From positions 104,125 to 152,944 of the forward strand of contig QHWT01000075.1 in assembly GCA_003222675.1 (NCBI GenBank): a DNA stretch of 48,820 nt, written 5' to 3'. Both the position numbers and the translations under genes were made by a program. The first letter of the stretch is position 1, and every line of letters starts with the position of its first letter. Shown in pieces: positions 26,934 through 43,497 of this stretch. Below the pieces are notes generated by a model. It saw only the letters and a list, made by a program, of their open reading frames with translations, was not told the DNA's origin and searched no databases. The DNA is from Acidobacteriota bacterium. GTDB taxonomy: Bacteria; Acidobacteriota; Vicinamibacteria; Vicinamibacterales; 2-12-FULL-66-21.

Positions 26934-27605
26934 TTAGTGGACCCTCACGCCGACGAAGGCCTTTGCGGTCCGCCAGTCTTCGTCGAGGATCGTCCATAGC
27001 GTCTGATCGAGGTACTCACCGTTGCGAAGGAACGACTTGCGCAGGACGCCTTCCTGCACGGCGCCGATCTTCCGCAGCGCGGCGTTGCCCCGACCGTTCA
27101 ACACGGCCGCGCGCGCTTCCAGCCGATGCGCTTGAATGGTATCGAACGCGAAGTCGACCACCAGCTTCGCGCCGTCCATGAACATGCCGGTCCCCCAGAA
27201 AGCGGAACCGATCGCGAACCCCCACTCGGCGGTCGCAAAACCCGGCTCGAGCTCGCGGACCTGGAAGATTCCGATCGCCGTGTCCATCCCGTGGGGCACC
27301 ACCGCGAAGCAGACGTAATTGCCTGCCGCGCGCTCGCGGTGCGTCCACGCGATAAACCGCTTGAATCCCTCGACCGTGGTCGGCGGCGGCGAAATGAACC
27401 GCGACACCTCTTCGGTCGAGAGCATGGCGAGCAGCGATGGAGCATCGGACAGCCGCAGCTCGCGGAGGGTGACCATCGACCCGGTCAGCACCGGCAGCGC
27501 CTTGCGCCAGTCCGAGGTCGTGGTGACGGCTGCTGCACGTGCAGCAGCGATGACTGCTTCCAAATCAGTCAAGGCCTGTGCGTCGCGGAAGGGCATCTTT
27601 TCCAT
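26934..27605 (-). CDS. GNAT acetyltransferase paired with NIVWGT subtilase (copy 1)
   Basis: This 223-residue RimJ/RimL-type GNAT has a Thr/Ala-rich leader of about 40 residues, then VTLRELRLSDAPSLL, FISPPPTTVEGFKRF, FAVVPHGMDTAIGIF, WGFAIGSAFWGTGMFMDGA and LEARAAVLNGRGNAALRKIG. These are the acetyl-CoA-binding and alpha/beta elements of the family. RimJ/L-like enzymes acylate N-termini or small molecules; the substrate is unknown. Its ATG shares one base with the subtilase stop (TAATG, A at 27605), so the two are translationally coupled. It is a close relative of the enzyme at 29753-30412. Confidence 0.9.
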   Translation of the reverse strand: MEKMPFRDAQALTDLEAVIAAARAAAVTTTSDWRKALPVLTGSMVTLRELRLSDAPSLLAMLSTEEVSRFISPPPTTVEGFKRFIAWTHRERAAGNYVCFAVVPHGMDTAIGIFQVRELEPGFATAEWGFAIGSAFWGTGMFMDGAKLVVDFAFDTIQAHRLEARAAVLNGRGNAALRKIGAVQEGVLRKSFLRNGEYLDQTLWTILDEDWRTAKAFVGVRVH

Positions 27606-29752: not shown

Positions 29753-30412
29753 TTAGTGGATGACGGATCCCCAGACCGCCTTGGTCTGGCGCCACTCCTC
29801 CCGAACCATCGACCAGAGGGCCTGGTCGAGGTATTCACCGTTGCGCACGAAGCTCCTGCGCAGCACGCCCTCTTTCACTGCGCCGATTTTCGCGAGCGCG
29901 CCATTGCCGCGCCCATTCATCACCGCCGCACGCGCCTCGAGTCGATGCACGCCGACGGTCTCGAACGCGAACTCCACCGTGAGCCTGGCTGCATCCATGA
30001 ACACCCCTGTCCCCCAGAACAGTGATCCGATTGCGAACCCCCATTCAGCGGTCCCAAACCCTGGTTCCAACTGTCGAATCTGAAAAATCCCAATCGCGGT
30101 GTCGAGCCCGTGTGGCACGACCGCGAAGCACGCGTAGCGTCCTGCGGCGCGCTCACGATGCGTCCATTGAATGAAGCGCTCGAACCCTTCGACCGTAGTC
30201 GGCGGCGGCGAGATGAATCGCGAGACTTCCTCGGTCGTCACGAGATCGCACAGCGACGGCGCGTCGGAGAGCCGCAGCTCGCGAAGCGTCACGCGGGTGC
30301 CCGCGAGCGTGGGCAGCGCCTTCGTCCAATCAGTGGTGGTAACCGGTTCCGAGATGCTGGTCGTCATCGTTGTCGCCATGGCCGTCGTCGCGTACTGAGG
30401 AAGCCGCTCCAT
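29753..30412 (-). CDS. GNAT acetyltransferase paired with NIVWGT subtilase (copy 2)
   Basis: From the ATG at 30412 the product has 219 residues. It has a Thr/Ala/Met-rich leader (TTAMATTMTTSISEPVTTT) and then the same blocks as copy 1: VTLRELRLSDAPSLC, FISPPPTTVEGFERF, FAVVPHGLDTAIGIF, WGFAIGSLFWGTGVFMDAA, LEARAAVMNGRGNGALAKIG. The start shares one base with the stop of the upstream subtilase (TAATG), exactly as in copy 1. It ends 48 bases before the copy 1 subtilase starts. The four genes look like a duplicated two-gene cassette. The substrate is unknown. Confidence 0.9.
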   Translation of the reverse strand: MERLPQYATTAMATTMTTSISEPVTTTDWTKALPTLAGTRVTLRELRLSDAPSLCDLVTTEEVSRFISPPPTTVEGFERFIQWTHRERAAGRYACFAVVPHGLDTAIGIFQIRQLEPGFGTAEWGFAIGSLFWGTGVFMDAARLTVEFAFETVGVHRLEARAAVMNGRGNGALAKIGAVKEGVLRRSFVRNGEYLDQALWSMVREEWRQTKAVWGSVIH

Positions 30413-32418
30413 TACCGGCCTCCATTCGTCGTCACTGTCGTCGTTGTCGTGGAAGTGCCCCAGACGATGTTCTCGCTGTCGCGCACCGTGCCCCACACGA
30501 TGTTTTCCGTGTCGCGCAGCGTGCCCCATACGATGTTGTCCAGGTCGCCGCCCGTGCGGAGCGCAGTACCCCGCACGATGTTGTCGAAGTCGCCGCGGCT
30601 CAGCGTGCCCCACACGATGTTTTCCGCGTCGCACAGCGTGCCCCAGACGATGTTCTCGCCCTCGAGGCGCATGCCGACGGTGCGGTCGCCCCAGACAACG
30701 TGGGACGCCCAGACGGCATCGGTGCCCCACACGATGTTGTCGAAGTCAGCGAGCGTGCCCCAGACGATGTTGTCGAGATCGGCACGGAGCGTGCCCCACA
30801 CGATGTTCTCGAAGATCGACGAGTGCGTTGCGATCACGCTCGCGTTCGAGATCAGCTCGCTGCCCCAGATCAGTTCCTGCGACCAGGGCTCCACAACGCC
30901 GCCGATGAACGTGGCGGGGACGAAGAATTGCGCCCAGCCTTCATTGAGCCGCGCGCGCGGGTTGATCGCTTCCGCAAGCTGCACGGCGCCGATCGCATTG
31001 AGCTCGCCGGTGCCCTGCGACAGCGAATCCGTTTCGTCGAGTTTCTTGCTCACCAGCACGGGCAGTGCGCTGTATTGCAGCATCGCCTTGACCGTGTTCG
31101 GCGTCGGATAACCGCCCGGATGCGCCGACCGGTTCGCCTCGATCGCCAGCGAGGCAACACCCGTTGCCACCGCGGCCGCCATGCTGGTGCCGCTCAGCAT
31201 CGCGAATCTCTTGCCGCTCTTCGTGACGACGAGCTGCGGGAAGACGTTCAGGAGCGAGCTCGATCGCGCGGCATCAGAGACGAGCCCGACGCCAGGCGCT
31301 ACCACGTCCGGCTTCGCGAATCCGTCGTACCACGTGGGACCGCGAGAGCTGAACCACGCGATGCGATCGTCGCCATGGAAGGCCGTGTTCTTCGTATCGA
31401 CCGCGCCCACTGTGATCGCTGATGGCGCGTTCCCCGGCGAAAGGATGCCCGCGTATCCGGCGTTGCCCGCTCGGTCCGTGCCGACGTTCCCTGCCGCGAC
31501 CACGACCACCAAGCCGGCCCGAACAGCGCGCTCGATGGCGAGGACCAGCGGATCCGTTGCCGCCGATTCCAGAATCGGATGGCCGAGGGAAAGATTGATG
31601 ACGTCAATTCCCTTCGTGTTGCGGTTCGCGACGACGAAATCAATCGCGCGCAGGACGTCCGAAGACCGGCCGCGGCCCTGCCCATCGAGCACCTTCAGGC
31701 CGAACAGGCGGACGCCCGGAGCCACGCCGCGGAACTCACCCTTCGAGAGGTGGCCGCTGCTCGCGATCAGCCCCGCCACGTGGGTGCCGTGACCGTAGTC
31801 GTCGTACGCGGCAACTGGTGCGCTCGATCCGCCTGTGAAGTCCCAGAAACCTGAAATGGAGTCCGCGAGATCTTTGTTCGGGTCAATGCCGGAGTCGATG
31901 ATGGCGACGCCAATGCCGGCACCGGTGTAGGCGACGCGGTCGACGCCGAGCGTCTCGCGCAGCGACGTCGGCAGAGCGCGCCCGGTCTCGAACAGTTGCT
32001 GGATGCCGCGCGCGTTCTTGCGCGCCGTGGCCGCCTTCGTCTTCTTGACGGGCGTGACGCCGGTAACCGAGACGTCGCTGTCCGATGAAACCACTGTCGC
32101 GGTCGGGTCGGCGGCGAGCGCGCCGAGATCCTCGCCGTGGACCACCGCGGTCAGTGCGTTGAGCGAAGGATGCTCGGCTTCGACGACGTCGCCGTGCGAG
32201 AGCAGCGCCTTCTTGAGCGCCGCACGCTCGGCGGCCGAGCGCGTCTGAATGATCACGCGCTGCGGACCTGGCGACGGCGACGCCGCTGCCTCGCGGAGGA
32301 CGCGATCGAGTTTCGAGTACCGGCCGGACGCACGGCCAGACGCCTGTGCCGTCAGTGGCAGCACGAGAGTGGCGGCAACCGCCAGTGCGAGTCGGGGAGC
32401 GGAAAAACGGTCTTTCAT
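30412..32418 (-). CDS. Secreted S8 subtilase with C-terminal NIVWGT repeats (copy 2)
   Basis: From the ATG at 32418 the product has 668 residues (a TTG three codons upstream is possible; numbers here follow that longer form). It has a signal peptide (APRLALAVAATLVLPLTAQA), a propeptide-like region, and the triad Asp178 (AIIDSG), His213 (YGHGTHVAG), Ser415 (LSGTSMAAA), with Asn314. The C-terminus (541-658) carries eight exact NIVWGT motifs plus one NIVRGT and one HVVWGD, then a Thr-rich tail. The catalytic part resembles the TIVWSD subtilase (INLSLGHP) more than copy 1. A sigma-54-like site precedes it. Confidence 0.94.
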   Translation of the reverse strand: MKDRFSAPRLALAVAATLVLPLTAQASGRASGRYSKLDRVLREAAASPSPGPQRVIIQTRSAAERAALKKALLSHGDVVEAEHPSLNALTAVVHGEDLGALAADPTATVVSSDSDVSVTGVTPVKKTKAATARKNARGIQQLFETGRALPTSLRETLGVDRVAYTGAGIGVAIIDSGIDPNKDLADSISGFWDFTGGSSAPVAAYDDYGHGTHVAGLIASSGHLSKGEFRGVAPGVRLFGLKVLDGQGRGRSSDVLRAIDFVVANRNTKGIDVINLSLGHPILESAATDPLVLAIERAVRAGLVVVVAAGNVGTDRAGNAGYAGILSPGNAPSAITVGAVDTKNTAFHGDDRIAWFSSRGPTWYDGFAKPDVVAPGVGLVSDAARSSSLLNVFPQLVVTKSGKRFAMLSGTSMAAAVATGVASLAIEANRSAHPGGYPTPNTVKAMLQYSALPVLVSKKLDETDSLSQGTGELNAIGAVQLAEAINPRARLNEGWAQFFVPATFIGGVVEPWSQELIWGSELISNASVIATHSSIFENIVWGTLRADLDNIVWGTLADFDNIVWGTDAVWASHVVWGDRTVGMRLEGENIVWGTLCDAENIVWGTLSRGDFDNIVRGTALRTGGDLDNIVWGTLRDTENIVWGTVRDSENIVWGTSTTTTTVTTNGGR
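30450..30815 (-). repeat. Coding tandem repeat for NIVWGT units (copy 2)
   Basis: The gene end carries about ten units of the AACATCGTSTGGGGCAC type with variable spacers. Two units have drifted: NIVRGT (tryptophan changed to arginine by one base) and HVVWGD. The exact units keep the peptide while using different synonymous codons. Confidence 0.8.
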
Positions 32419-32702
32419 CGCGAACAACGACAGAGCAATAGGGAGGCCACGACGGACGGGCTAGTGGTGAAGGCTGCTAACTATCGAAATCGATTGGGTT
32501 TTGCGACCTATAACGAGCGCGGGACCAGGATCGTAAGGCCGTCAGTGTGTGCCGAAACGTGACAACAGATCCGTAATTCGAAGCAGAGGTGGAAACTAAC
32601 TGCTGACGTCAAAGAGCTTACAAGAATATGTTCTAGGTTGGAACAGCCGTGCAGGAGTGGAACATGGCCGCACTTTGATGTAAGTATCTGCAAATCAGTA
32701 GC
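32419..32702. other. Gap between subtilase copy 2 and permease gene
   Basis: About 284 bases, visibly richer in A and T than its surroundings. Apart from the sigma-54-like site at 32434-32449 I see no gene, repeat or RNA element. Its length suggests the permeases and the subtilase have separate control. Confidence 0.45.
32434..32449 (-). promoter_or_regulatory. Candidate sigma-54 promoter (-24/-12) of subtilase copy 2
   Basis: Read on the minus strand the site is TGGCCTCCCTATTGCT: GG and GC are separated by exactly 10 bases, with TGGC at -24 and TTGCT at -12, close to the TGGCAC-N5-TTGCW consensus. Transcription would start about 5 bases before the ATG at 32418, an unusually short leader. 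It is a sequence match only. Confidence 0.5.
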
Positions 32703-33686
32703 TTACGACTCGCCGTCCCTCCATAGGAGAGGATCGCGCCCGGAGGACGCCAGGTGTATCGAGAACACCGCCAGAACGATGGCCCCCGCGGGCGCCAGGA
32801 GCCATGGAGCGTCTGCGCCGCCGCGCGCGGCTCCGGCATCCTGCAGCATCGCACCCCAACTCGGGGTCGGCGGCGCAAACCCAAGCCCCACATAGGAAAG
32901 CGTCGCCTCGGCCATCACGAACGCAGGTACGAGCACGCTGGCCTGCACCGCAAGGAACCCAAGCGACGCGGGCAGCAGATGCCGGGCGATCACGCGCAGT
33001 GGGCTCGCCCCCAGTGCCTTGGCAGCTTCTGCGTACTCCTGCCTCCGTTCGATGAGGAAGATTCCGCGTACTCCGCGGGCCGCAGCAGGCCATCCGACGA
33101 AGCCGAGGACGAGGACGAGGGCAGTGAAGACCTGCCGCGGTGTCAGGACGAGAGGCAGCGCGCCGCGGAGTGCAAGCACCACGTAAATGCCCGGAAGGAC
33201 GAGCACGAGATCCGCAAGATGCATCAGGGCCGAATCGGCCCACCCGCCTGCGTAGCCGGCCAGCGCGCCGGTCAGCGCGCCAATGGCGAGAGCTATCACC
33301 GCCGCGAGGAGGGCGACGCCGAGCGAGAGCCGGGCACCGAGCACGACGCGTGAAAACACGTCGCGCCCGAGCCCATCGCTCCCGAGCGGAAACCAGGGCT
33401 CGGTGTCGGCGCCGCGAACGAGCGTGCCGGAGAGCCATCGCAGAGGAATCACGCGCGTGCGGTCTTCCACGTAGCCTCGCTCCAGCGGGTCGACCAGCCG
33501 CAGGGGATAGACGAACGGCGCATGCAGGCGGGCCTCGTCGTCGATGACGTGCGGCCGCATCGGCGGCGCGAAAGGGTGAGTGGAAAACTGGCGCGCCGGT
33601 TCGTACGGGGCGATCCAGGGCGCAAAGGCCACGAGCAGCGCCAGCATCGCCGCGAACGTCAGCCCGATTCGCTGCCGGGCGATCAC
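32703..33686 (-). CDS. Oligopeptide-type ABC transporter permease (OppC/DppC-like)
   Basis: The 327-residue inner-membrane protein has an N-terminal membrane helix (LTFAAMLALLVAFAPWIAP), a large periplasmic loop with PLGSDGLGRDVFSRVVLGAR, the OppC signature, and then five helices. The cytoplasmic EAA loop reads EYAEAAKALGASPLRVIARH. Its ATG overlaps the OppB-like stop (ATGA). No ATPase gene follows; the next gene on the strand is an S8 subtilase. The C-terminal end (SSGRDPLLWRDGES) diverges from the usual form. Confidence 0.92.
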   Translation of the reverse strand: MIARQRIGLTFAAMLALLVAFAPWIAPYEPARQFSTHPFAPPMRPHVIDDEARLHAPFVYPLRLVDPLERGYVEDRTRVIPLRWLSGTLVRGADTEPWFPLGSDGLGRDVFSRVVLGARLSLGVALLAAVIALAIGALTGALAGYAGGWADSALMHLADLVLVLPGIYVVLALRGALPLVLTPRQVFTALVLVLGFVGWPAAARGVRGIFLIERRQEYAEAAKALGASPLRVIARHLLPASLGFLAVQASVLVPAFVMAEATLSYVGLGFAPPTPSWGAMLQDAGAARGGADAPWLLAPAGAIVLAVFSIHLASSGRDPLLWRDGES

Positions 33687-34636
33687 GTGGTGCGCTCCGT
33701 GTCGATCCGTGGATCGATCGCAGCGTGCAGCACGTCAGCGATGAGCACGCCCGCCGCGAGAAACAGGGCGCCGGCCGCAGCGCACCCGGCGACGAGGTAG
33801 GTGTCGCGCGACATCAGCGCCTGGCGCATCAGCTCGCCGAGTCCCGGCCACGAGGTCACGATCTCGACGGCAAAGGATCCGCTGAACAGCGATCCGATCA
33901 TGACGCCGTAAATGGCGAGGATCGGTCCAAGCGACAATCGCCACGCGTGACGCCAGATCACCCGCGATTTCGGGACGCCGCGTGCCAGCGCCGCGATCAT
34001 GTTCGGCCGGTGCAGGGCGTCGCGGAGCGCTTGTGACTGCAAGCGCTCGAGCGTGGCCGCCAGCGGTAATGCGAGCGCGAGCGCCGGCACGATCAGCCGC
34101 GATGCGGACATGCGGCCGCCGATCGGCGCCAGCCCCGTGCGTACCGCGATCGTCACGAGCACCAGCGACGTGATGAGCGGCGGAACGGAAAGCAGCACGA
34201 GGGATGCCGTGCGAATCACGGAGGCAAGGAAACCGCCGCGACTTCCGGTCACGACGCCGCACGGGATGCCGATGGCCGTCGCGAGCACGAGCGCCATCGC
34301 GGCGAGCAGTGCGGTATTCGCCGCGCGCTCGCCGACAAGTGTCCGGACAGGACGCCGGTACTGAAAGGAGTCGCCGAGGTCGAGCGTGAGGCTCCGTCGG
34401 AGCCAGCTGGCGTACTGCTCGGCGGCGGGCCGATCGAGGCCGAGCCTCGCCCGTTCTGCCGCGCGGACCGCCGGGTCGCCTCCGAGCTGCGCCGCGTAAT
34501 CACCAGGAGCGATCTGCGCGAGCAGCAGCGAGCCCGATGCCACGACGAAAACCAGTGCGACTGCCGCGACCGCGCGACGGAGCAGGAAGCGGACGAAGAG
34601 GCCGCGGCGGCTAGCGATGCGGGGCTGCCGCGCCAT
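33683..34636 (-). CDS. Oligopeptide-type ABC transporter permease (OppB/DppB-like)
   Basis: The 317-residue protein has six membrane segments with the N-terminal RFLLRRAVAAVALVFVVASG, LDLGDSFQYRRPV, the EAA-like loop MIAALARGVPKSRVIWRHAW, and the late signature SGSFAVEIVTSWPGLGELMRQAL. These match OppB/DppB. It overlaps the end of the binding-protein gene by 26 bases and the OppC-like gene by 4, so the three are an operon. It would form the channel with its partner, and needs ATPases from elsewhere. Confidence 0.92.
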   Translation of the reverse strand: MARQPRIASRRGLFVRFLLRRAVAAVALVFVVASGSLLLAQIAPGDYAAQLGGDPAVRAAERARLGLDRPAAEQYASWLRRSLTLDLGDSFQYRRPVRTLVGERAANTALLAAMALVLATAIGIPCGVVTGSRGGFLASVIRTASLVLLSVPPLITSLVLVTIAVRTGLAPIGGRMSASRLIVPALALALPLAATLERLQSQALRDALHRPNMIAALARGVPKSRVIWRHAWRLSLGPILAIYGVMIGSLFSGSFAVEIVTSWPGLGELMRQALMSRDTYLVAGCAAAGALFLAAGVLIADVLHAAIDPRIDTERTT

Positions 34637-36359
34637 CAGTCACGTTCAGCGTATCGGGGTTCCACAGGATCTTGGGATCGAGCAGCGCCGGCTCGGCGCC
34701 CGCCACGCGGGGGTTCGTGGCAATCGAGACCTTCGGCGCGATGAAATAGATTCCAGGGAGATTCTCGCCGAAGATTTTCTGCACCTCCGCAAACAAGCGC
34801 CGGCGTTCGTCCAGCGTGGGCGCCGCGATCTGCTGCTGCATCAACTCGTCGATGCGACGCTCCCACGGAGTCGCAGGAGTCTTCTGCTCGGGGTTCCAGA
34901 AGTGGAGCGATCCGCTGCTCAACCAGTAATCCAGGGTCATGGCGGGATCCATCGCGCTAAACTGGAATCCGTAGTAGATGCTGTCGTAATCGCGCGACTG
35001 CCATCGTTGCGCGATCGACGGAAAGTCCAGCGCCACGACATCGACGGTGATGCCTGCCTGCCGCAGATGCTCCTGAACCACGGTCGCCGTCTGCGCGCGG
35101 ATGTTTCCGCCTTGCGTGAGAATCGAAAACCGGACGGGCGCTCCTGACGCATCCTCGAGCATGCCATCACCGTTGCGATCCGTCAGACCGATTGCAGCGA
35201 ACAGCGCCCTGGCGCGCTCGGGATCGTGCGGGTACTTCGGTGCCGCATCGGAGAACCAGATGCGATTGCCCGGCGTGACCGGCCCGTAGACCGGCACCGC
35301 CGCACCGAGGTACACGGAGTTCACAATCGCATCGCGATCGACCGCGTAGGAAATCGCCTGGCGGAACTCGGATTTCTGCAGGTATGCGCGAGCGGGTGGC
35401 GTCCTGGCGAGATTGAACCAGAGAACGTTCGGGTCGACGCCGGTGCCGACATCGATCAGCGTCAACGCGCCGCGATCGCGCAGCCGCTTCAAACTTGCGT
35501 AATCCTGCGGGCGGATATCGGCTTGCGTCAACAGATCGATCGATCCGGATTCGAGCCGCTGCACCTCTGCGTCCTGGCCGGAGGCGATCTCGAACACGAC
35601 ACGATCCAGGTACGGAAGCGCGCCGCCTGACGCATCCTTCCGCCAATAGCGTGTATTGCGAGTCAGCGTGACGCGCTGTCCGGGCACGTACTCGCTGACG
35701 ACGAAGGGCCCGAGCCCCGCCATGTGGCCGGGACCGTTCGTGACGCCCCACGCGTCCGCGAACGTGCCTGCCTTTAGGGCGGGGTCGAGTTGGTGCTTCG
35801 GGATGATCGGGAGATTGTCGAGCAGCCGGAGCCCCGGGGTGAATGGCGCGGGCAGCGTGATAACGATGGTCGCGGGATCGGGAGCGGCGATCTGCAAGGG
35901 CTTGCCCTCCACTCGAAGTGCCGAGCCCAGGTTGCTTTGCAGCTTCGGGTCGTAGGCCGCCGCGAACGAGAACAACACGTCAGCGGAGGTGAAGGGGACG
36001 CCGTCCGAAAAGGTCACGCCCTGGCGCAAGGTCAATGTGAAGGTCCGGCCATCCGGCGAAGCGGTCCAGCGTTCGGCGAGCCACGGCTCGAGTTCCTCCG
36101 TTTTGCGATTGATGCGAACGAGCTTGGCCTGCGTCAGGGCCGCCGTGGCGTCGGCGGCAGCGGAGTTGTCGATGTACCGGTTGAACGTGCGGGGCTCGCT
36201 GCGGAGCGAAGCGACGAGGGCTCCCCCGCGTACCGGACCTCCAGCTCCCTGCCGCGTAGAGAGCTCCGACGAGCGGCACCCGGAAACGGCTGCCAGGATC
36301 AGCGCGAATAGCGGGCAAACATAGCGGGCGCGGCATGCTCGGGCCACTCTTGAACTCAC
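34611..36359 (-). CDS. Peptide-type substrate-binding lipoprotein (SBP family 5)
   Basis: From the GTG at 36359 the product has 582 residues. A lipoprotein signal (YVCPLFALILAAVSGC) fits this start; the frame is open to 36530, but the upstream part lacks any family feature. The mature part has the family 5 blocks GGALVASLRSEPRTFN, LEPWLAERWTASPDGRTFTL, TLRQGVTFSDGVPFTSADV, QAISYAVDRDAIV and YDSIYYGFQFSAMDP. Such proteins bind oligopeptides or other ligands outside the inner membrane. It leads the importer genes and is divergent from the TIVWSD subtilase. Confidence 0.92.
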   Translation of the reverse strand: MSSRVARACRARYVCPLFALILAAVSGCRSSELSTRQGAGGPVRGGALVASLRSEPRTFNRYIDNSAAADATAALTQAKLVRINRKTEELEPWLAERWTASPDGRTFTLTLRQGVTFSDGVPFTSADVLFSFAAAYDPKLQSNLGSALRVEGKPLQIAAPDPATIVITLPAPFTPGLRLLDNLPIIPKHQLDPALKAGTFADAWGVTNGPGHMAGLGPFVVSEYVPGQRVTLTRNTRYWRKDASGGALPYLDRVVFEIASGQDAEVQRLESGSIDLLTQADIRPQDYASLKRLRDRGALTLIDVGTGVDPNVLWFNLARTPPARAYLQKSEFRQAISYAVDRDAIVNSVYLGAAVPVYGPVTPGNRIWFSDAAPKYPHDPERARALFAAIGLTDRNGDGMLEDASGAPVRFSILTQGGNIRAQTATVVQEHLRQAGITVDVVALDFPSIAQRWQSRDYDSIYYGFQFSAMDPAMTLDYWLSSGSLHFWNPEQKTPATPWERRIDELMQQQIAAPTLDERRRLFAEVQKIFGENLPGIYFIAPKVSIATNPRVAGAEPALLDPKILWNPDTLNVTDGAAAPHR

Positions 36360-36653
36360 CGGCCAATTGCTTGGCCTGTCTCCATCATCTGATTTCCTTG
36401 GGTTTTTGCGTGTGGGGCCTACCCGCTGTCGGAGCAACCGGCAGGCAGCCAATCTGTTGGCTCCCGGAGTAGAGATTCCCCTGTGCTGGCGGGCTCCATC
36501 GTAGTCGAAGCTCGAGAGAAGCGCAATCATGGTGAACTACTGAGTCATCTCATGATCCATTGAATGCCTTCAAGACCGGATTCACAACTTCGAACCTCTG
36601 CCATGGCACGGCCCGTGCCTCAGCTAATCCGCGAGCCCGTTCCCCTCATCACC
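36360..36653. other. Divergent control region between binding protein and TIVWSD subtilase
   Basis: About 294 bases. It holds the sigma-54-like site at 36604-36618. On the minus strand near 36420-36450 a stem with GCCT/AGGC and CCG/CGG arms could form in the leader of the binding-protein message. I compared it with the c-di-GMP riboswitch layout and saw no match. In-frame extensions of both flanking genes run into it but look non-coding. Confidence 0.45.
36604..36618 (+). promoter_or_regulatory. Candidate sigma-54 promoter (-24/-12) of the TIVWSD subtilase
   Basis: TGGCACGGCCCGTGC matches the consensus TGGCACG-N4-TTGC at all but one fixed position, with the exact 10-base spacing between GG and GC. 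Transcription would start near 36630, about 24 bases before the ATG at 36654. The site is also a palindrome (GGCACGG-C-CCGTGCC), so a repressor site or chance is possible. Confidence 0.55.
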
Positions 36654-38342
36654 ATGATCAAAGAAACGTTTCTTCGATTCCGTCGCGTGGTCCTCGTTGT
36701 TGCGAGCGTCCTGCTCGTCTCCGTCGCCGCGCCTGCTTCCACCCACGCCGAGTCTCGCCAGCGAGCCCGCCTATCGCGCGACCTCGCGGATCGCCTGACC
36801 AGTCGACTCGAAGCGCCGACGGATGTCATCGTGACGGCCAGCGACGCAGCGATCGACCAGTTGGCGATCCGCTACGGAGCGCGGCTGAAAAAGCGGATTC
36901 ATGGCGGCGCGGTGATGGAAGTGACGGGCGGACAGCTCGACGCGCTGAGCCTCGACGCCGACGTCCCGCACATCGCCGGCGATGTGCCCGTCCACCGGAT
37001 GATGGCGGTCACGACGCAATCGACCGGCGCGGACCAGGCGTGGACCGGACTCGAAGGGTGGCGCGGGGTTACAGGTCGCGGCATCGGCGTCGCGATCGTT
37101 GATTCAGGAATCGCGCCGCACGCGGCGCTCAAGGAACGCGTGATCGCGTCGGTGGATTTCACGGCGCCGAACGGCACCGGGCGCGACGAGTACGGTCACG
37201 GGACGCACGTCGCCGCAATCGTCGGTGCGGACGGCGACGGGCATCCGGGGATGGCGCCCGGCGCGAATCTAATCAACCTGCGCGTCCTCGGCGCGGACGG
37301 CTCCGGCCGCACGAGCGACGTGATCGACGCCATCGACTGGGCCGTCGCCCACCGTCAGCAGTTCAACATCCGCGTGATCAACCTGTCGCTTGGGCATCCG
37401 GTCTTGGAGTCTTATCTCGAGGATCCACTCTGCCAGGCGGCGCAGCGCGCAATCGATGCGGGGATCGTGGTGATTGCCGCCGCGGGCAATTTCGGCAAGA
37501 CCGCGGATGGCCGTCCGGTGGTCGGCGGGATCGTCGCGCCGGGCAACACGCCGGACGTGATCACCGTGGGCGCGATCAACACGCGCGGCACGGCCGTGCG
37601 ATCGGACGATGTGATGGCGACCTACAGCTCGCGCGGGCCGACGGCCATCGACGGCGTGCTGAAGCCCGAGCTGGTCGCGCCGGGCAATCGCATCGTCGCC
37701 GCGGCCGCCCCGGGGAGCTACCTGGCGCGCACCTATCCGGAGCGCGTGGTCGAGGGTCAGGGCGCGCACGCCTACATCGAATTGAGCGGCACCAGCATGG
37801 CGACCGCGGTCGTGTCGGGCGCGGCCGCGCTGCTGCTGGACGCTCGCGCGGAGCTGACGCCGGCGCAGGTGAAGATCGTCCTGCAGGTCACGAGCTCGCG
37901 ACTGCCAGGAGCGGGGCTGATCGAGGAGGGCGCCGGGAGCCTGAACGCGCTCGCCGCAGTCGAACTGGTGGGAGGAACTGCCGCGACAAATACCACAATC
38001 GCGAGCGAAATCGTGACACCGAGCCACCTCGCGTTCTTCTCTAAAGAGGCGGCGTTAATCACCGCAAGCCTGCCGGTGAAATCGGGAACTCGCGTGCCCG
38101 GGGGCTATGTCCTTGTAATTGGAAAGACGATCGTCTGGAGTGACACCATCGTCTGGAGTGACACCATCGTCTGGAGTGACACCATCGTCTGGAGCGACTT
38201 CATCGGCCGCGCAACGATAGTATCGCGCGACACTATCGTCTGGAGTGACACCATCGTCTGGAGTGACACCATCGTGTGGAGTGACACCATCGTCTGGAGC
38301 GACACGATTGTTTGGAGCGATACGATCGTGTGGAGTGATTGA
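36654..38342 (+). CDS. Secreted S8 subtilase ending in TIVWSD hexad repeats
   Basis: The ATG at 36654 is chosen because it starts a signal peptide (FRRVVLVVASVLLVSVAAPA) and lies after the candidate promoter; the frame is open from 36564. The 562-residue protein has a short propeptide-like region and the triad Asp150 (AIVDSG), His182 (YGHGTHVAA), Ser381 (LSGTSMATA), with Asn279. From residue 492 it has four TIVWSD hexads, a broken stretch (FIGRA TIVSRD), then six more hexads without linkers; the last D is the last residue. It is probably exported, with the hexads exposed or cleaved. HD-GYP and sigma-54 activator genes follow on the same strand. Confidence 0.95.
   Translation: MIKETFLRFRRVVLVVASVLLVSVAAPASTHAESRQRARLSRDLADRLTSRLEAPTDVIVTASDAAIDQLAIRYGARLKKRIHGGAVMEVTGGQLDALSLDADVPHIAGDVPVHRMMAVTTQSTGADQAWTGLEGWRGVTGRGIGVAIVDSGIAPHAALKERVIASVDFTAPNGTGRDEYGHGTHVAAIVGADGDGHPGMAPGANLINLRVLGADGSGRTSDVIDAIDWAVAHRQQFNIRVINLSLGHPVLESYLEDPLCQAAQRAIDAGIVVIAAAGNFGKTADGRPVVGGIVAPGNTPDVITVGAINTRGTAVRSDDVMATYSSRGPTAIDGVLKPELVAPGNRIVAAAAPGSYLARTYPERVVEGQGAHAYIELSGTSMATAVVSGAAALLLDARAELTPAQVKIVLQVTSSRLPGAGLIEEGAGSLNALAAVELVGGTAATNTTIASEIVTPSHLAFFSKEAALITASLPVKSGTRVPGGYVLVIGKTIVWSDTIVWSDTIVWSDTIVWSDFIGRATIVSRDTIVWSDTIVWSDTIVWSDTIVWSDTIVWSDTIVWSD
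38127..38339 (+). repeat. 18-bp coding tandem repeat for TIVWSD
   Basis: The unit ACCATCGTCTGGAGTGAC occurs in ten copies, four before and six after one broken unit (38199-38231). Early copies are nearly identical; later ones differ at third codon positions (acgattgtttggagcgat) while the peptide is unchanged. There are no spacers, so this is a protein repeat and not a CRISPR. Confidence 0.93.
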
Positions 38343-38376
38343 TCTAGATAATTTCTGTTGACATTAACCGTATACT

Positions 38377-38382
38377 GAGGAG
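38377..38382 (+). promoter_or_regulatory. Ribosome-binding site before the nine-codon ORF
   Basis: GAGGAG stands seven bases before the GTG at 38390, an ideal position and among the best ribosome-binding sites near any gene of this locus. It is the main reason to take the tiny ORF seriously. Confidence 0.6.
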
Positions 38383-38389
38383 CATAACC

Positions 38390-38419
38390 GTGCAGCGAAT
38401 CATCGTCTGGGGCGACTAA
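38390..38419 (+). CDS. Nine-residue peptide MQRIIVWGD (candidate micro-ORF)
   Basis: GTG CAG CGA, then codons for I-I-V-W-G-D, end in TAA followed at once by a second TAA. A GAGGAG ribosome-binding site stands seven bases upstream. The peptide is a hybrid of the two repeat types in the window: IVW as in TIVWSD and WGD/WGT as in NIVWGT. It lies 47 bases after the TIVWSD subtilase and 30 bases before the HD-GYP gene. It could be a free peptide signal, a leader peptide that controls the HD-GYP gene, or a stray repeat unit left by recombination. A start within so short an ORF cannot be proven from sequence. Confidence 0.45.
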   Translation: MQRIIVWGD

Positions 38420-38449
38420 TAAGACACGCCGGCGGCAGCAGGTCGATTT

Positions 38450-40798
38450 ATGACCGCACACGCACAGCTCACGAATGCAGGACGGCTCTATCTAGCGGCT
38501 GTAATCAGCTCTGGATCGTTCGTAGTCCTGAACTCTCTCTACAGCCTCTATAAGTCTCCGGTAGGCTACGAATGGTTCGTCCTAGCGGGACTCACTCTAC
38601 TTAGTGGCTCGTTTACGGTTAAAGTCCCTACCATCCCCGCGCGGCTGTCCGTCTCTGAAACATTCGTCTTTGCGGCCGTGCTCATGTATGGGCCAGCGGC
38701 AGCCACTATGGTCGTCGCTCTGGACAGTCTCGTCATCTTTAACTTCTCTGCACCTGCGATCGCCGTCTGGATTGCGGCCCAAGCATTCTTTTATCTAGCG
38801 GACGTCGGCCCGCTTGCTCAGGCTCCTCAACCAATTCTTAGTCTATTGGTCCCGCTGCTTGCTCTAGCGGTTCTGTACTTCGTCCTGAACAGTTGGCTTA
38901 TCGCGTGGGCAGTCGCGCTCGAGCAAGCCACGTCCGCACTATTAGTTTGGCGTCGTAACTTCTTCTGGCTCTCATTAAACTATTTTAGCGGCGCGTCGGT
39001 TGCCGCGCTGCTGCTCCCCTACTTGCAGGCACCAGGTGCGGCGTTCGTTAAAGTGATCGGCATTCTGCTGCCTCTGCTGCTGATTTCGTACCTGACGCTG
39101 AAAACTGCGCTCGGCCGAGTGGAAGACGCAAATCGGCATCTGAGCGAGCTCAATCGATTATATCTCTCAACGATCGAAACGTTGGCGATGGCGATAGATG
39201 CTAAAGACCAAATTACGCACGGCCATATACGTCGCGTTCAAATTTTTGCAGTCGGCTTGGCTAAGGAAATGGGAGTTACAGAACCCGCTCAGATCAAGGC
39301 TGTCGAAGCAGCCGCGTTATTGCATGACATGGGTAAGCTCGCAGTTCCCGAGTACATCTTAAATAAACCAGGTCCGCTGACGCCGGCAGAATTCGAGAAG
39401 ATGAAACTTCACGCCAGTGTAGGCGCAGACATTCTGTCCGCAATCGCTTTTCCTTATCCGGTTGTACCGATCGTTCGCCATCACCATGAGAATTGGAACG
39501 GCACTGGGTATCCTGATGGCCTGAGAGGAAGCGAGATACCGGTTGGAGCGCGCATCCTGTCTGTGGTGGACTGCTTTGATGCCCTAACTTCTGATCGGCC
39601 GTATCGTCCTCGTCTATCTGATTCAGAGGCGCTGCGCATTCTGACAGAGCGCCGGGGAACGATGTACGATCCGCTGGTCGTAGACACGTTCGCGCGAGTG
39701 TATCGCGACATTGCACCGTCCGACGATGACATCTCTCTTAAGGCCAGTCTTTCCGCTATAGCGCGCGAAATGTCGGTCACGACAGTTGCGCGCCTGCCCG
39801 GCACATCCAGGTTAGATGATATCAGTGCAAGCACGGAGGAGATGTTATCCCTCTATGAGCTCGCGCGCAGCCTCAGCGGTCGCCTGAACCTTTCAGATGC
39901 AGCGGACGTTATCTCTAAGCATTTGAGGCGTCTCGTGCCAGCTACCACTTGTGTTTTCTTTCTTTATGATGAATCTACAGACGAATTAGTAGCAGCGCAC
40001 GCGGCCGGAGAGAACTCTGCTCACTTTTCGGATATTCGAATCGCTATGGGGCAACGATTAAGTGGTTGGGTAGCAGCGAACCGGCAAACAATCGTAAATT
40101 CCGATCCAATGCTCGATTTAGGAGAGGTCGCCCGGTCCCTTAAGCCGCCCCTGAGGAGCTGTCTCAGCACACATCTCGCCGCAGAATCTAAGCTGGTTGG
40201 TGTGTTGACTGTCTATTCGACGCACCGAAACGCATTCAATGAGGACCATCGCCGACTGGTTGAAGTTATTGCGCGGCAGGTATCTCAGACAGTACTCCAG
40301 GCCGTTGAGTTTCAGCAGCAGAATTCTGAAAAGCTGCATGATCAGTTGACTGGCCTCCCCAATCGCCGACACCTTGAGCGATTCGTGGCGTCGGAATTGG
40401 CCGGTTCAGGTGGGCTGCCGTGCACAATCCTGCTTGTCGAAGTCAAAGGCACACCAGGCTCAAAACCTTCGCATCGAAACTTGCCCGATTATGTCTTCGC
40501 ACAAGCTGCGGATCGTATTCGTGTTGCATTGAGAGGTGCGGATCTCTTATTTAGGTACGATTCGAACAGATTTATCGTTTTGCTGGCTCAAACTGATGGG
40601 TCCACGGCTGAACTTGTTGCGCGTCGAATAACAGACCATGTAGGTCTCGGAAGAACAGGTGACGACGAGAGCTTTGGCGGGGCCGTTAGGATTGGCCGCG
40701 CCACTGCGCCAGATGACGGCCTCTCTCTTGCGGACCTCGTTTCCGCAGCTGAATCACGTTCGAGTGGTTCTCCAAATTCGCGACCCTCTGTGCATTGA
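38450..40798 (+). CDS. Membrane HD-GYP phosphodiesterase with GAF and degenerate GGDEF domains
   Basis: The 782-residue protein starts with about seven or eight membrane helices (1-225) of a MASE-like sensor. The HD-GYP domain (about 250-420) is intact: HDMGK (His292), HHENWNGTGYPDG (344-357), and DCFDALTSDRPYR. A GAF domain (about 465-625) follows. The last part starts DQLTGLPNRR like a GGDEF domain but reads RYDSNRF where GGDEF should be, so it should not make c-di-GMP. The protein probably degrades c-di-GMP on a membrane signal. Base use is more A/T-rich than in neighbours. Its TGA overlaps the next TTG. Confidence 0.92.
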   Translation: MTAHAQLTNAGRLYLAAVISSGSFVVLNSLYSLYKSPVGYEWFVLAGLTLLSGSFTVKVPTIPARLSVSETFVFAAVLMYGPAAATMVVALDSLVIFNFSAPAIAVWIAAQAFFYLADVGPLAQAPQPILSLLVPLLALAVLYFVLNSWLIAWAVALEQATSALLVWRRNFFWLSLNYFSGASVAALLLPYLQAPGAAFVKVIGILLPLLLISYLTLKTALGRVEDANRHLSELNRLYLSTIETLAMAIDAKDQITHGHIRRVQIFAVGLAKEMGVTEPAQIKAVEAAALLHDMGKLAVPEYILNKPGPLTPAEFEKMKLHASVGADILSAIAFPYPVVPIVRHHHENWNGTGYPDGLRGSEIPVGARILSVVDCFDALTSDRPYRPRLSDSEALRILTERRGTMYDPLVVDTFARVYRDIAPSDDDISLKASLSAIAREMSVTTVARLPGTSRLDDISASTEEMLSLYELARSLSGRLNLSDAADVISKHLRRLVPATTCVFFLYDESTDELVAAHAAGENSAHFSDIRIAMGQRLSGWVAANRQTIVNSDPMLDLGEVARSLKPPLRSCLSTHLAAESKLVGVLTVYSTHRNAFNEDHRRLVEVIARQVSQTVLQAVEFQQQNSEKLHDQLTGLPNRRHLERFVASELAGSGGLPCTILLVEVKGTPGSKPSHRNLPDYVFAQAADRIRVALRGADLLFRYDSNRFIVLLAQTDGSTAELVARRITDHVGLGRTGDDESFGGAVRIGRATAPDDGLSLADLVSAAESRSSGSPNSRPSVH

Positions 40799-43497
40799 GG
40801 TCCAAAGTGTCTGCCCAAACCATCGAAAATGCGCACGACATGCTTCGGACGGGCTTGCTTCGGCGATCGCTGGAGCAAGTACAATCTAGCAGGACAAATG
40901 ACCCTGACGCCATTGCGTTGGCAGCAGAAATCTATCTTCTGCAGGGGCGCCAAGAACTCGCGCTGCGCTTCTCTCGCGAGCTGACAACGCGTCGCACTGT
41001 GTCCGAACAGATTATGGCGCGCGCAATGTTCGTGGCCGGCGCTAGTTCCTGGGATCTGGGCGACTGCGCCGGAGGCATCGAACAACTCGAGCGAGCGGCG
41101 GTGTTGGCTCACAAGATTTCCGACACTTCGTTGGTGTCGAAGATTCGTTTGCACATTCTCGAAAAGGCTGCTGATACGGACGCTCCGTACGAAATGTCGG
41201 TGCCCTTGAGCGCCGCCGCTGTTCGTGCAGTCCATCGATCCGGAGATCCGCAAATCATGATCGAAGCGCACATTGCGTTCGGTCGACTTGAGGCAAGAAT
41301 TGGTCACCTCGAGTTAGCTAAGAGACACTTGGCGCTGGCTAGGCGATTCTTGCACGATGAGCCCAACCGTTGGTTAGATGCGAATGAGAAGCTTACTGAG
41401 TCAATCGTTCGGTCACTAGAAGGAGACATTGAGAGCGCATGCGACATAGCCCAGCAGGCTCTTGAGGACGCCGCTGTTATCGGATGGCCTAAAGGAGAGG
41501 CAATCGCTGCCGCTAATCTTGCGTTTTATTATGTGTGCCTGAATCGTTTCGCTGAAGCAACTGCTTTCCTGATGAAGGCTGAAGCTACGGGGTACTCCTT
41601 GGCGAACTTTGCTTATGCGCTACTAGACACAAAACTTGTCTTGGCATCAGCTCGCGGCGATCATGCAGAATCCGAAAGATTATGGCAGGCCGTAAGGAGT
41701 ACTGCAGACGGCGTGGCGTCATGGTACGTTTTGCGTTCCGCTCACACAAGAGTTCGTACGCTGATTGCAGAGCAAAGGCACGCGGAGGCGCTGGAGGTTG
41801 CGAAACACAGTCTCAGTGAGGCAATAAGGTTAAAGAATGGATTTTTCAAATCCGTCTTCAGCCTGAGCATCGCTGAACTTGAAGTTGCAACTGGAGCGCG
41901 TCCGTCGCGGTTAGCCGAATTATCGGTGCCGTCGAACTCTTTGTCGCTATTGGCTGTGCGCCGGCAGGTCGTGGCGGCGGCGCTGGTTCAAGAACGTCCT
42001 CGACGTGCGGCAACAGAAACGGCAGCAGCAAGGCGAATTCTACGGGCCGCTGGTTCGGAACAGGAATGGTATCCGGGACACGGCGACAGATTCATTCATG
42101 GCGAAGGAATTCCGACGAGCGAAGACATAACGCTCGACGACGCGGTCGCGTTGATCGAACTCGCGGGCTATCCGCACGTCTTGGCGCGCGAGGCATACGC
42201 ACTGCTCCAGCTCACTGGCGCTGCGACGGCGCTCGCGCTCGTCGCGCGCGGACCCACCGGGATCCGGCAAGTGGATTCACAGGGATGGGCTGAGAAGCAG
42301 GCGGTCGATGCCGCCGAGCATCCGGAGCCGTATCTGCGGATCACGTGCGGACAGCATCGCGACGAGACGTGGGAGATCCTCGCGGACCTGAAACCCACCC
42401 TCGCGGATCGGTGCGCCGGAGTTGCGGTCCGAAAACTGGTCGACACCGCGGTCACGCTCGATCGCTACCGGCGCGAAGAGAAGCAACGCGACGCGCTCTG
42501 GCCCGCCGACACGCTCGAAACTGACGGCGGGCTCTGGGTCTCCGAGCAGATGACGGAGTTGCTGTCGATCGGCCGTCGGATCGCGCCGTCCGACATCACG
42601 GTCCTCTTGACCGGAGAGACCGGCACCGGCAAGGAGGTCCTCGCGCGCGCGATCCACCGTGCCTCGGGTCGCGCCGCCAAAGCGTTCGTGCCGTTCAACT
42701 GCACCGCTGTCCCCCGCGACATGCTCGAGAGCCAGCTGTTCGGCTACCGTCGCGGCGCCTTCACAGGCGCCGATGCCGCATTCGACGGCGTCATCCGCGG
42801 GGCTGCCGGCGGCACGCTCTTCCTGGACGAGATCGCCGAAATCGGTCCTGATCTGCAGCCGAAGCTGCTCCGCTTCCTCGAAACCCACGAAGTGCACGGG
42901 CTCGGTGAGGCGCATCCCGTCGCCGTCGACGTGCGCGTCATCGGCGCGACCAACGCCGACCTGGAGACGTTGATGGCGGACGGCCGTTTCCGCGAAGACC
43001 TCTTCTATCGCCTCAACGTCGTCCGCCTGCGGGTGCCGCCCCTGCGCGAGCGCCGCGAGGAGATTCCGCCGCTGATCGAACACTACCTCCACCGCTTCGC
43101 GGAAGAACAGAAGAAGGGCCGGCTCACGCTGGACGATGAGGCGCTCGAGTACCTGCTGCTGTTTGCGTGGCCCGGCAACGTGCGGCAACTCGTGAACGAA
43201 ATGCGCCGACTCGCCGCGATGGCAGAGCCGGACTCGACGGTTACCGCGGTGCTGCTCTCGCCGGAGATCCAGACTTCGCGGCGGACGGTGCGCCTTGCGC
43301 CGGGCGACGAGCCGGAAATTCGTCTCCGGCTCGATCAGCCGCTCAAGGACGCCGTGGATACGATCGAGCGTGCGCTGGTGCGGCGAGCGCTCGAGCGTGC
43401 GAGAGGCAATTACGAGAACGCCGCCCGCCTGCTCGGAATTTCGCGCAAAGGGCTGTTCCTCAAGCGGCGACGCTGGGGCATGCAGCGGGCATCGTAG
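40795..43497 (+). CDS. Helical-repeat (TPR-like) sigma-54-dependent activator
   Basis: The TTG at 40795 overlaps the HD-GYP stop; GTG at 40807 or ATG at 40840 are alternatives. The 900-residue product has about 400 residues of TPR-like helical hairpins (LEARIGHLELAKRHLALARR, AANLAFYYVCLNRFAEATAF), a linker, then an intact AAA+ core: GETGTGKE (about 606), GAFTGA (about 654), GGTLFLDEIAEI (about 672), FREDLFYRLN. A Fis-type helix-turn-helix ends it. The first half is A/T-rich like the HD-GYP gene, the second GC-rich. The helical part would be the signal sensor, as in peptide-binding TPR regulators, but no ligand is known. Confidence 0.9.
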   Translation: MRSKVSAQTIENAHDMLRTGLLRRSLEQVQSSRTNDPDAIALAAEIYLLQGRQELALRFSRELTTRRTVSEQIMARAMFVAGASSWDLGDCAGGIEQLERAAVLAHKISDTSLVSKIRLHILEKAADTDAPYEMSVPLSAAAVRAVHRSGDPQIMIEAHIAFGRLEARIGHLELAKRHLALARRFLHDEPNRWLDANEKLTESIVRSLEGDIESACDIAQQALEDAAVIGWPKGEAIAAANLAFYYVCLNRFAEATAFLMKAEATGYSLANFAYALLDTKLVLASARGDHAESERLWQAVRSTADGVASWYVLRSAHTRVRTLIAEQRHAEALEVAKHSLSEAIRLKNGFFKSVFSLSIAELEVATGARPSRLAELSVPSNSLSLLAVRRQVVAAALVQERPRRAATETAAARRILRAAGSEQEWYPGHGDRFIHGEGIPTSEDITLDDAVALIELAGYPHVLAREAYALLQLTGAATALALVARGPTGIRQVDSQGWAEKQAVDAAEHPEPYLRITCGQHRDETWEILADLKPTLADRCAGVAVRKLVDTAVTLDRYRREEKQRDALWPADTLETDGGLWVSEQMTELLSIGRRIAPSDITVLLTGETGTGKEVLARAIHRASGRAAKAFVPFNCTAVPRDMLESQLFGYRRGAFTGADAAFDGVIRGAAGGTLFLDEIAEIGPDLQPKLLRFLETHEVHGLGEAHPVAVDVRVIGATNADLETLMADGRFREDLFYRLNVVRLRVPPLRERREEIPPLIEHYLHRFAEEQKKGRLTLDDEALEYLLLFAWPGNVRQLVNEMRRLAAMAEPDSTVTAVLLSPEIQTSRRTVRLAPGDEPEIRLRLDQPLKDAVDTIERALVRRALERARGNYENAARLLGISRKGLFLKRRRWGMQRAS

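Follow-up and report, generated by a model that had tools for sequence, protein, structure and literature searches.

Cytosolic sensing of peptides by TPR receptors has been described for the Firmicutes (PMC10518010, PMC9765709). In the leaderless communication peptide (LCP) system SIP-RopB of Streptococcus pyogenes, the cited part of the source describes a hydrophobic, aromatic peptide encoded by a very short ORF that has a ribosome-binding site and no secretion or processing sequence, near the genes of a TPR-containing regulator and a secreted protease; import of the LCP did not need Opp (PMC10518010). RopB is an HTH-TPR protein, with an N-terminal HTH and C-terminal TPRs, and in this class the receptor binds a peptide that the cells secrete and take up again. 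The RRNPPA receptors sense exported, protease-processed pheromones, as set out in the cited part of PMC9765709, and are built as an N-terminal HTH or Rap-type effector followed by a superhelix of 5-9 TPRs, which holds the peptide on its concave face. Tandem pheromones, the Phr propeptides, are known in phage Phr according to the part cited of PMC11343458, and the cCF10/iCF10 pair on PrgX, in the cited part of PMC5552905, is modelled as two similar peptides converging on one receptor domain.

The locus discussed here belongs to a phylum outside the Firmicutes, the Acidobacteriota, which are among the commonest soil bacteria. A literature search returned no report of a peptide signal in Acidobacteriota among the matches listed, and a string search for IVWGD-like words returned only papers unrelated by title and abstract. 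The DNA analysed, which is termed the window, is a stretch of 48,820 nucleotides from an Acidobacteriota bacterium of the order Vicinamibacterales, and all positions refer to it. The stop codon of a subtilase gene (38342) and the ATG of an HD-GYP gene (38450) are separated by a gap of 107 nt, which holds a nine-codon ORF on the forward strand at 38390..38419. Its codons, GTG CAG CGA ATC ATC GTC TGG GGC GAC, encode MQRIIVWGD; the start is GTG, the stop TAA (38417-38419) is followed by a second TAA (38420-38422), and a ribosome-binding site, GAGGAG, lies at 38377..38382 on the same strand, 7 nt 5' of the start codon. Start, ribosome-binding site, peptide, double stop and gap length had all been reported in the initial annotation, and direct reading of the DNA bears them out. 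In the genome of the window itself the pattern ATHRTNTGGRGNRAYTRR, which comprises the motif and a stop, has only two matches, namely the last tail repeat of the subtilase and the nine-codon ORF.

Orthologues of the ORF are found across the order. Among 162 genomes of the order, the pattern RTGNNNNNNNTNRTNRTNTGGGGNRANTRR has 30 matches, exactly one in each of 30 genomes, whereas the reversed pattern used as a control matches in none of the 162; this agrees with the low odds of chance occurrence claimed from the window at the outset. The same pattern has no match in 31 further genomes of the class. With a slightly tighter pattern, about 85,000 species yield 57 matches: 26 have an HD-GYP gene homologue nearby, one has Opp genes alone, and 30 have none of the four tested neighbours. 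Judged by these neighbourhoods, the matches beyond the order look like chance. We also note that four loci in Sabulitectum/Fermentibacteraceae bins (L108, L132, L145 and L150) have frames longer than 750 codons with M[NDE]HLI[IV]WG[DE] at their end, and none of the four tested neighbours nearby.

Reading of all frames in the same gap of loci with an HD-GYP homologue reveals MARLIVWGD, MVAVIIWGD, MAKLIIWGE, MSRLIIWGE and a GTG-started RTLIIWGE form. Diverged forms missed by the pattern were reached through HD-GYP homology (VRPLIIWTD, MSRLIIWED, MHPIIVWN, MQKIIVWD, MRIIAWGS, MVRTIIVWS and MQKSRIIAWS) and through homology to a small HTH gene described below (MKRIIVWD, MKPVIVWD and MKTIFVWD). The listed forms span 8-10 codons and suggest a peptide family that consists of M, one to four free residues, [LIV]-[IF]-[IVA]-W, and an end such as GD, GE, GN, TD, ED, D, N, S or GS. 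An SD core (GGAG, GAGG or AGGA) is present at -16 to -4 in 35 of 40 mini-ORFs, compared with 9% of random places, and four of the five mini-ORFs without it carry GGGG in that interval. The mini-ORF is probably undercounted in draft genomes because 13 of the 20 contigs of L195-L214 break off within the subtilase gene or its repeat tail. At L200 (G093:C324:2500-5618) the subtilase frame continues into ...GDTKSIIVWD followed by a stop, where the free-standing peptide ORF is expected, and an ACG occupies the position of the expected start codon. With these findings, the nine-codon ORF is very probably a real, conserved and functional-looking ultrasmall gene.

Constraint at the protein level was assessed on 14 ORFs found via HD-GYP homology and aligned on the tryptophan; the pattern-found ORFs were left out because the pattern itself fixes bases. 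Over the three codons before the tryptophan (W-3 to W-1), pS is 0.66 and pN 0.235, so that synonymous changes are about threefold more frequent per site than non-synonymous ones. The codon at W-2 is exclusively ATC or ATT in this set, with phenylalanine seen at that position in L201, outside the set, while the codons at W-1 and W-3 show amino acid changes as well (pN ~0.36). In the 30 pattern ORFs there is almost no constraint on the two codons that follow the start (pN/pS 0.82). The initial annotation had proposed that relatives should keep the start, the stop and the IVWGD codons with synonymous changes; this holds in kind, but in distant forms the motif relaxes to [IF]-[IVA]-W with a polar or acidic end.

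The conserved bases could alternatively constitute a DNA-level element, a promoter or operator for the HD-GYP gene in which the ORF is incidental. The hexanucleotide CCGATA, which resembles the -10 element of sigma28/FliA promoters (consensus GCCGATAA), occurs just 3' of the mini-ORF stop in 18 of 38 rows, comprising L066-L071, L083-L087, L090, L093, L094 and the 8-codon loci L098, L197, L199 and L201. Among nine-codon loci, codon 4 is NTA in 14 of 14 with CCGATA versus 2 of 18 without it. A sigma28/FliA-like promoter may thus overlap the mini-ORF in part of the order, as if shaping codon choice. As a general explanation a DNA element is nevertheless very improbable: the window and 17 other nine-codon loci are devoid of CCGATA and still encode the peptide, for the most part by different codons (CTG, TTG, CTC, ATC), the starts (ATG, GTG) and stops (TAA, TAG, TGA) vary, and the synonymous rate exceeds the non-synonymous one.

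The gene upstream of the ORF, at 36564..38342 on the forward strand with a probable start at ATG 36654, encodes a secreted subtilase (Peptidase_S8; PF00082, 3.8e-50). The residues D116, H148 and S347, which form the S8 triad, are invariant in 21 subtilase sequences. The tail of the window subtilase comprises TIVWSD hexapeptide repeats (38127-38339), broken by one degenerate stretch, and is modelled without structure, with residues 429-528 under pLDDT 50, a result that a shallow repeat alignment can equally give. Tail arrays at other loci have QILWSD, TIIWAD, GIAWSD, TLVWGD, TIIWGD, SIIWGN and others as their units. The likeness between tail and nonapeptide lies in the hydrophobic residues and the tryptophan. 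The two residues after the tryptophan of the peptide equal the modal pair of the local tail in only 2 of 27 loci; the residue following it is glycine in 19 of 27 tails and in 27 of 27 peptides, where the pattern imposes it, and the last residue is mostly aspartate in the tails (19 of 27) versus glutamate in 18, aspartate in 8 and asparagine in one of the peptides. WG[DE] peptides thus stand beside local tails of TIIWAD, GIAWSD, GIIWSD, GIGWSD or TIVWSD, and the window and L090, both found without the WG-imposing pattern, show the same contrast. Because of these differences, a pocket that accepts both kinds of peptide would need to recognise chiefly the hydrophobic pair and the tryptophan.

This comparison also bears on the origin of the ORF. 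In the window, the mini-ORF and one repeat have CATCGTCTGG[A/G]GCGAC in common, as would be expected if the ORF were non-functional debris of a tail repeat left by recombination. Debris is extremely improbable, as the ORF occurs once, and in a constant position, in 30 of 162 genomes, usually has an SD core, and differs from the local tail after the tryptophan in 25 of 27 loci. The suggestion that the ORF descends from a repeat unit by recombination is, for the same constancy of place and the WG[DE] end beside differing local tails, unsupported as a recent event; local gene conversion or an old common origin could still account for the string shared in the window.

The order of genes is fixed: a divergent oligopeptide-type importer, a sigma54-type promoter, the subtilase with an xIVWGD-like tail, the nonapeptide, the HD-GYP gene, and a TPR-sigma54 activator gene. 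The HD-GYP gene (38450..40798, forward strand) encodes an HD-GYP-GAF-GGDEF protein of c-di-GMP turnover, with the HD and GYP motifs present in the translation and a membrane part read from the sequence. On the reverse strand, OppA (34611..36530), an oligopeptide-type ABC substrate-binding protein (SBP_bac_5), is followed by an OppB-like permease (33683..34636; BPD_transp_1) and an OppC-like permease (32703..33686), the latter named by its position and its conservation together with OppA and OppB. The oligopeptide label of the binding protein is assigned by family, as its scores fall under the NCBIfam cut-offs. The OppC-like gene is followed directly, on its own strand, by a subtilase paralogue with an NIVWGT-repeat tail (30412..32427), and a second paralogue with the same kind of tail is situated further along that strand (27605..29704).

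Conservation of these neighbours was counted in the 29 pattern loci other than the window, limited to those with enough readable flanking DNA. The subtilase is found upstream in 26 of 27 loci with at least 500 nt readable, the HD-GYP gene follows in 28 of 29, the TPR-sigma54 gene is present downstream in all 23 loci with at least 3.5 kb readable, and a divergent OppA gene is found in 24 of 26 loci with at least 3.1 kb readable upstream. Both misses belong to one genus, and in L066 and L067 the 6 kb of upstream DNA that could be read show no Opp genes.

A sigma54-type -24/-12 element, TGGCACGGCCCGTGCC, is located 5' of the window subtilase (36604..36619, forward strand). The motif TGGCAY-N6-TGC, which corresponds to the sigma54 -24/-12 consensus, was scanned for in 26 regions of up to 550 nt lying 5' of the subtilase or of its HTH gene, and 21 of them contain it, as against 0.15 expected from dinucleotide shuffles. 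This form of the motif was fixed after a first look at the scan, so that 21 of 26 is partly fitted, and controls are given for that reason: the reverse strand has 3 of 26, other ORFs have 3 of 122, and the two halves at other spacings are found once at 7 and never at 3, 4, 5, 8 or 9. The scan was anchored near the mature N-terminus; an earlier one with a stricter threshold and a poor anchor gave only 3 of 27. L075, with a short upstream region, and L065, L087 and L089, in which no subtilase frame exceeds 400 codons, were left out of the count. In many genomes (L167-L194) a small gene of the HTH_17/excisionase type (GRSVSIDQAAQLL...) lies between the element and the subtilase; as far as seen, the window and L064 have none. 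The motif is present 63-109 nt 5' of the HTH match in 22 of 30 HTH-homology loci, in one of which the first T is replaced by C, and this set overlaps in part with the 26 regions. RpoN is encoded in the genome of the window, and the upstream sequence thus fits a sigma54-dependent operon. A scan for sigma70-type promoters in 37900-38800 of the window found none. An Rfam search of 36000-41000 gave two matches far under the gathering score, which were set aside as chance.

Which neighbour the mini-ORF accompanies was evaluated on 23 subtilase/HD-GYP loci: the 17 of 29 HD-GYP-homology loci that have a subtilase match, the window, L215, L216, L221, L223 and L224. L222, with no subtilase on its short contig, was excluded, as were the other 12 HD-GYP loci, which have no subtilase match and no such ORF within the upstream DNA reached (L018 and L016 lie near contig ends). 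The mini-ORF is present in 14 of 15 loci with a TPR-sigma54 gene downstream of the HD-GYP gene; the one without a recognisable ORF is L217 (G045), where subtilase and TPR-sigma54 gene are both present. It is present in none of the eight loci that lack a TPR-sigma54 gene downstream (L102, L103, L215, L216, L218, L220, L221 and L223), and two of these, L215 and L216, are in the genome of the window. Fisher's test on the hand-entered counts gives p 1.8e-5, a value that overstates independence because the loci are related by descent and their kinship is ignored. The activator gene of L094 is seen merely as a weak fragment at a contig end. At L218 (G071:C64, contig end) a TPR-sigma54 homologue lies 4-5 kb upstream of the ORF-less pair and probably belongs to another operon of the full type, of which the contig retains just the last part. 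From the split of 14 of 15 versus none of eight, the mini-ORF tracks the regulator rather than the subtilase or the HD-GYP gene. Its position ahead of the HD-GYP gene, not adjoining the TPR gene, counts against the activator as its receptor.

That position would suit a regulatory leader, the main rival explanation and one that had been named alongside a peptide signal from the start, in which translation of the nine-codon ORF or stalling on it tunes translation or transcription of the HD-GYP and TPR-sigma54 genes. Short leader ORFs that stall ribosomes are known. The mini-ORF precedes the HD-GYP gene in nearly all pattern loci, is very short and is constrained near its stop codon, and the leaders of L067-L070 and L092 fold with z of -1.6 to -3.2, so that a role as RNA is possible in part of the order. 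On average, however, folding is no better than that of shuffles (mean z -0.20 over 30 leaders; +0.5 for the window), and no terminator-like site is found on the coding strand in 37900-38800 of the window; RNAalifold on 39 leaders returns no structure, and as its shuffled control likewise returns none the result is uninformative. A leader also fits poorly with the absence of the ORF from all eight subtilase/HD-GYP junctions without a downstream TPR-sigma54 gene, with the retention of the ORF in L065, where no HD-GYP gene follows, and with the resemblance of the peptide to a secreted tail, which a leader would not need. We regard a leader function as fairly unlikely.

The same linkage bears on an action on the subtilase, in which the nonapeptide, inside the cell, would bind the protease or its tail and keep it inhibited, or capped against aggregation, until it is exported. 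The two genes adjoin, the motif of hydrophobic residues and tryptophan is similar, and the repeats are hydrophobic. Yet the ORF stands beside none of eight other WG-tail subtilases adjoining HD-GYP genes, and the pattern ATHRTNTGGRGNRAYTRR finds no such ORF near the two NIVWGT subtilases of the window; the tail is modelled without structure, and L065 has the ORF on a 6.1-kb contig with no subtilase. This function is improbable.

The activator gene (40795..43497, forward strand) encodes the proposed receptor, which comprises an N-terminal TPR superhelix, a small alpha/beta domain, a sigma54 AAA+ domain and a Fis-type HTH. Pfam matches include Sigma54_activat (PF00158, 4.1e-61), an AAA lid and HTH_8 (1.3e-8), with TPR_12 under the cut-off. 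The AAA+ domain carries RGAFTGAD, so that the GAFTGA motif and the DNA-binding HTH of sigma54 activators are both present. The AlphaFold2 model of residues 1-592, made with 19 sequences, has a mean pLDDT of 85 and predicts about ten helix pairs over residues 2-419; residues ~460-540 appear to follow a GAF-like order of elements by our own reading of the secondary structure, with no GAF match in Pfam. Foldseek with this model returns TPR proteins first, LGN and others. VIA-align, run on 936 of the top Foldseek chains, aligns RapF with its peptide at Z 27.0 (341 aligned, rmsd 4.8), followed by RapJ-CSF (25.9), NprR (25.1) and AimR (23.1); Rap, NprR and AimR chains span Z 20-27. Proteins outside this family score equally, namely an APC/C subunit (30.4), APPBP2 (29.4) and MalT domain III (26.8), and RopB/Rgg, PlcR and PrgX chains are absent from the best 50 of the 936. 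The predicted TPR fold is like that of peptide receptors and equally like that of other TPR proteins, and is no proof of binding.

A different arrangement is observed at L065 (G080:C283, 1-6110), whose 6.1-kb contig has no homologue of the subtilase or the HD-GYP gene. OppA and OppB genes are divergent from a sigma54-like element, CGGCACCGTGCGTGCC, and an HTH_17 gene. The peptide ORF, MSRVRRLIIWGD, starts with ATG, has AGGAGG, and is readable as 12 codons from its ATG or nine from an inner GTG, with the WGD peptide kept. A second ORF, MNVKTQIKAGSDGDTIVWGN, has 20 codons, ends in DTIVWGN and possesses its own SD sequence. The next genes encode an HlyD protein and a C39-peptidase protein that is cut by the contig end, of the peptide-exporter type. 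A pattern for ends of the TIVWGN/D type finds four places in the 162 genomes: besides L065, it picks up a mini-ORF already known and the ends of two subtilase tails. A homologue of the C-terminal half of the activator is present on another contig of the same genome. L065 may represent a possible exported WG-peptide system without subtilase. The pairing of a leaderless-type and a possibly exported WG peptide with an exporter and an importer is what the signalling model below would predict, in one genome; the C39 variant rests on that genome because a search of the 162 genomes at E 1e-20 gives no further match to its HlyD.

Taken together, we propose, with a probability of roughly 0.55, that the nonapeptide, made without a leader, is cytosolic and controls the TPR-sigma54 activator jointly with similar peptides that are set free from the subtilase tail. 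The peptide signal suggested in the initial annotation is thus the reading that the gene neighbourhood favours, while the leader suggested there lacks clear structural support. In the proposed mechanism, the sigma54 promoter would drive the secreted subtilase with its unstructured tail, a tandem array of a related hexapeptide; the subtilase or other proteases would free tail peptides outside the cell, and the oligopeptide-type ABC transporter encoded next door would import them. Imported tail peptides and the home-made nonapeptide would then bind the TPR domain of the activator two genes downstream. The activator could in turn control the operon, presumably by activating its promoter, and through the HD-GYP protein c-di-GMP. 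The nonapeptide, for which no export route is apparent, would serve either as a cis-acting co-activator or as a competitor of the imported peptide. The model builds on conservation, protein-level constraint, linkage, the sigma54-type motif and the predicted TPR fold, and presumes translation of the nonapeptide and its binding. The full two-peptide system is put forward more tentatively, at somewhat less than even odds. In it, the protease would carry a pheromone array of its own in the form of its tail, and the nine-codon gene would supply a related leaderless peptide in the cytosol; the TPR-sigma54 activator would respond to both and act back on its operon as well as on c-di-GMP.

Comparison with the described systems suggests likeness in the presumed function and reveals differences in architecture. 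The nonapeptide shares with SIP-RopB, as far as the cited part of the source describes it, an ORF of mostly 8-10 codons with a ribosome-binding site and without a secretion or processing sequence, and a hydrophobic, aromatic peptide encoded close to the genes of a secreted protease and of a regulator with TPRs (PMC10518010). LCP-RopB is a Firmicutes system whereas the nonapeptide belongs to Acidobacteriota, the nearest TPR regulator is a TPR-AAA+-Fis (HTH_8) protein and no member of the RopB clan flanks the ORF, and the locus has in addition a second, exported peptide array of similar motif and Opp-type genes. With the RRNPPA systems, within the cited part of the source, it has in common the TPR superhelix shape, a peptide array and Opp-type genes (PMC9765709). 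In contrast to those receptors, the predicted superhelix has about ten helix pairs that start at residue 2, the effector domains are C-terminal, a protease carries the peptide array as its tail, and the phylum is a different one. The model of two similar peptides and one receptor domain recalls cCF10/iCF10; unlike that pair as described in the cited part of PMC5552905, the second peptide here is made without a signal sequence and would act within its producer cell. The activator resembles sigma54 enhancer-binding proteins of the NtrC/NorR kind in PF00158, GAFTGA, HTH_8 and the sigma54-type motif 5' of the operon, and differs from them in its sensory part, which is predicted as a TPR superhelix of about ten helix pairs with a small alpha/beta domain. 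By analogy, the nonapeptide system would work like LCP or RRNPPA signalling, yet it is a member of neither family by architecture.

The conserved gene of 8-10 codons is much shorter than gene callers usually accept. From its place in the locus, it would seem to be one half of a bacterial system of peptide signalling that is so far undescribed. The mini-ORF and the activator offer a candidate ligand/receptor pair that is defined by sequence and testable with synthetic peptides. If the model is true, intracellular peptide sensing of the Rap/RopB type would have arisen independently in a Gram-negative phylum from a sigma54 activator, one lineage having a C39-type exporter instead of the protease, and the principle of TPR peptide sensing would extend to another phylum and to another transcription system, that of sigma54.
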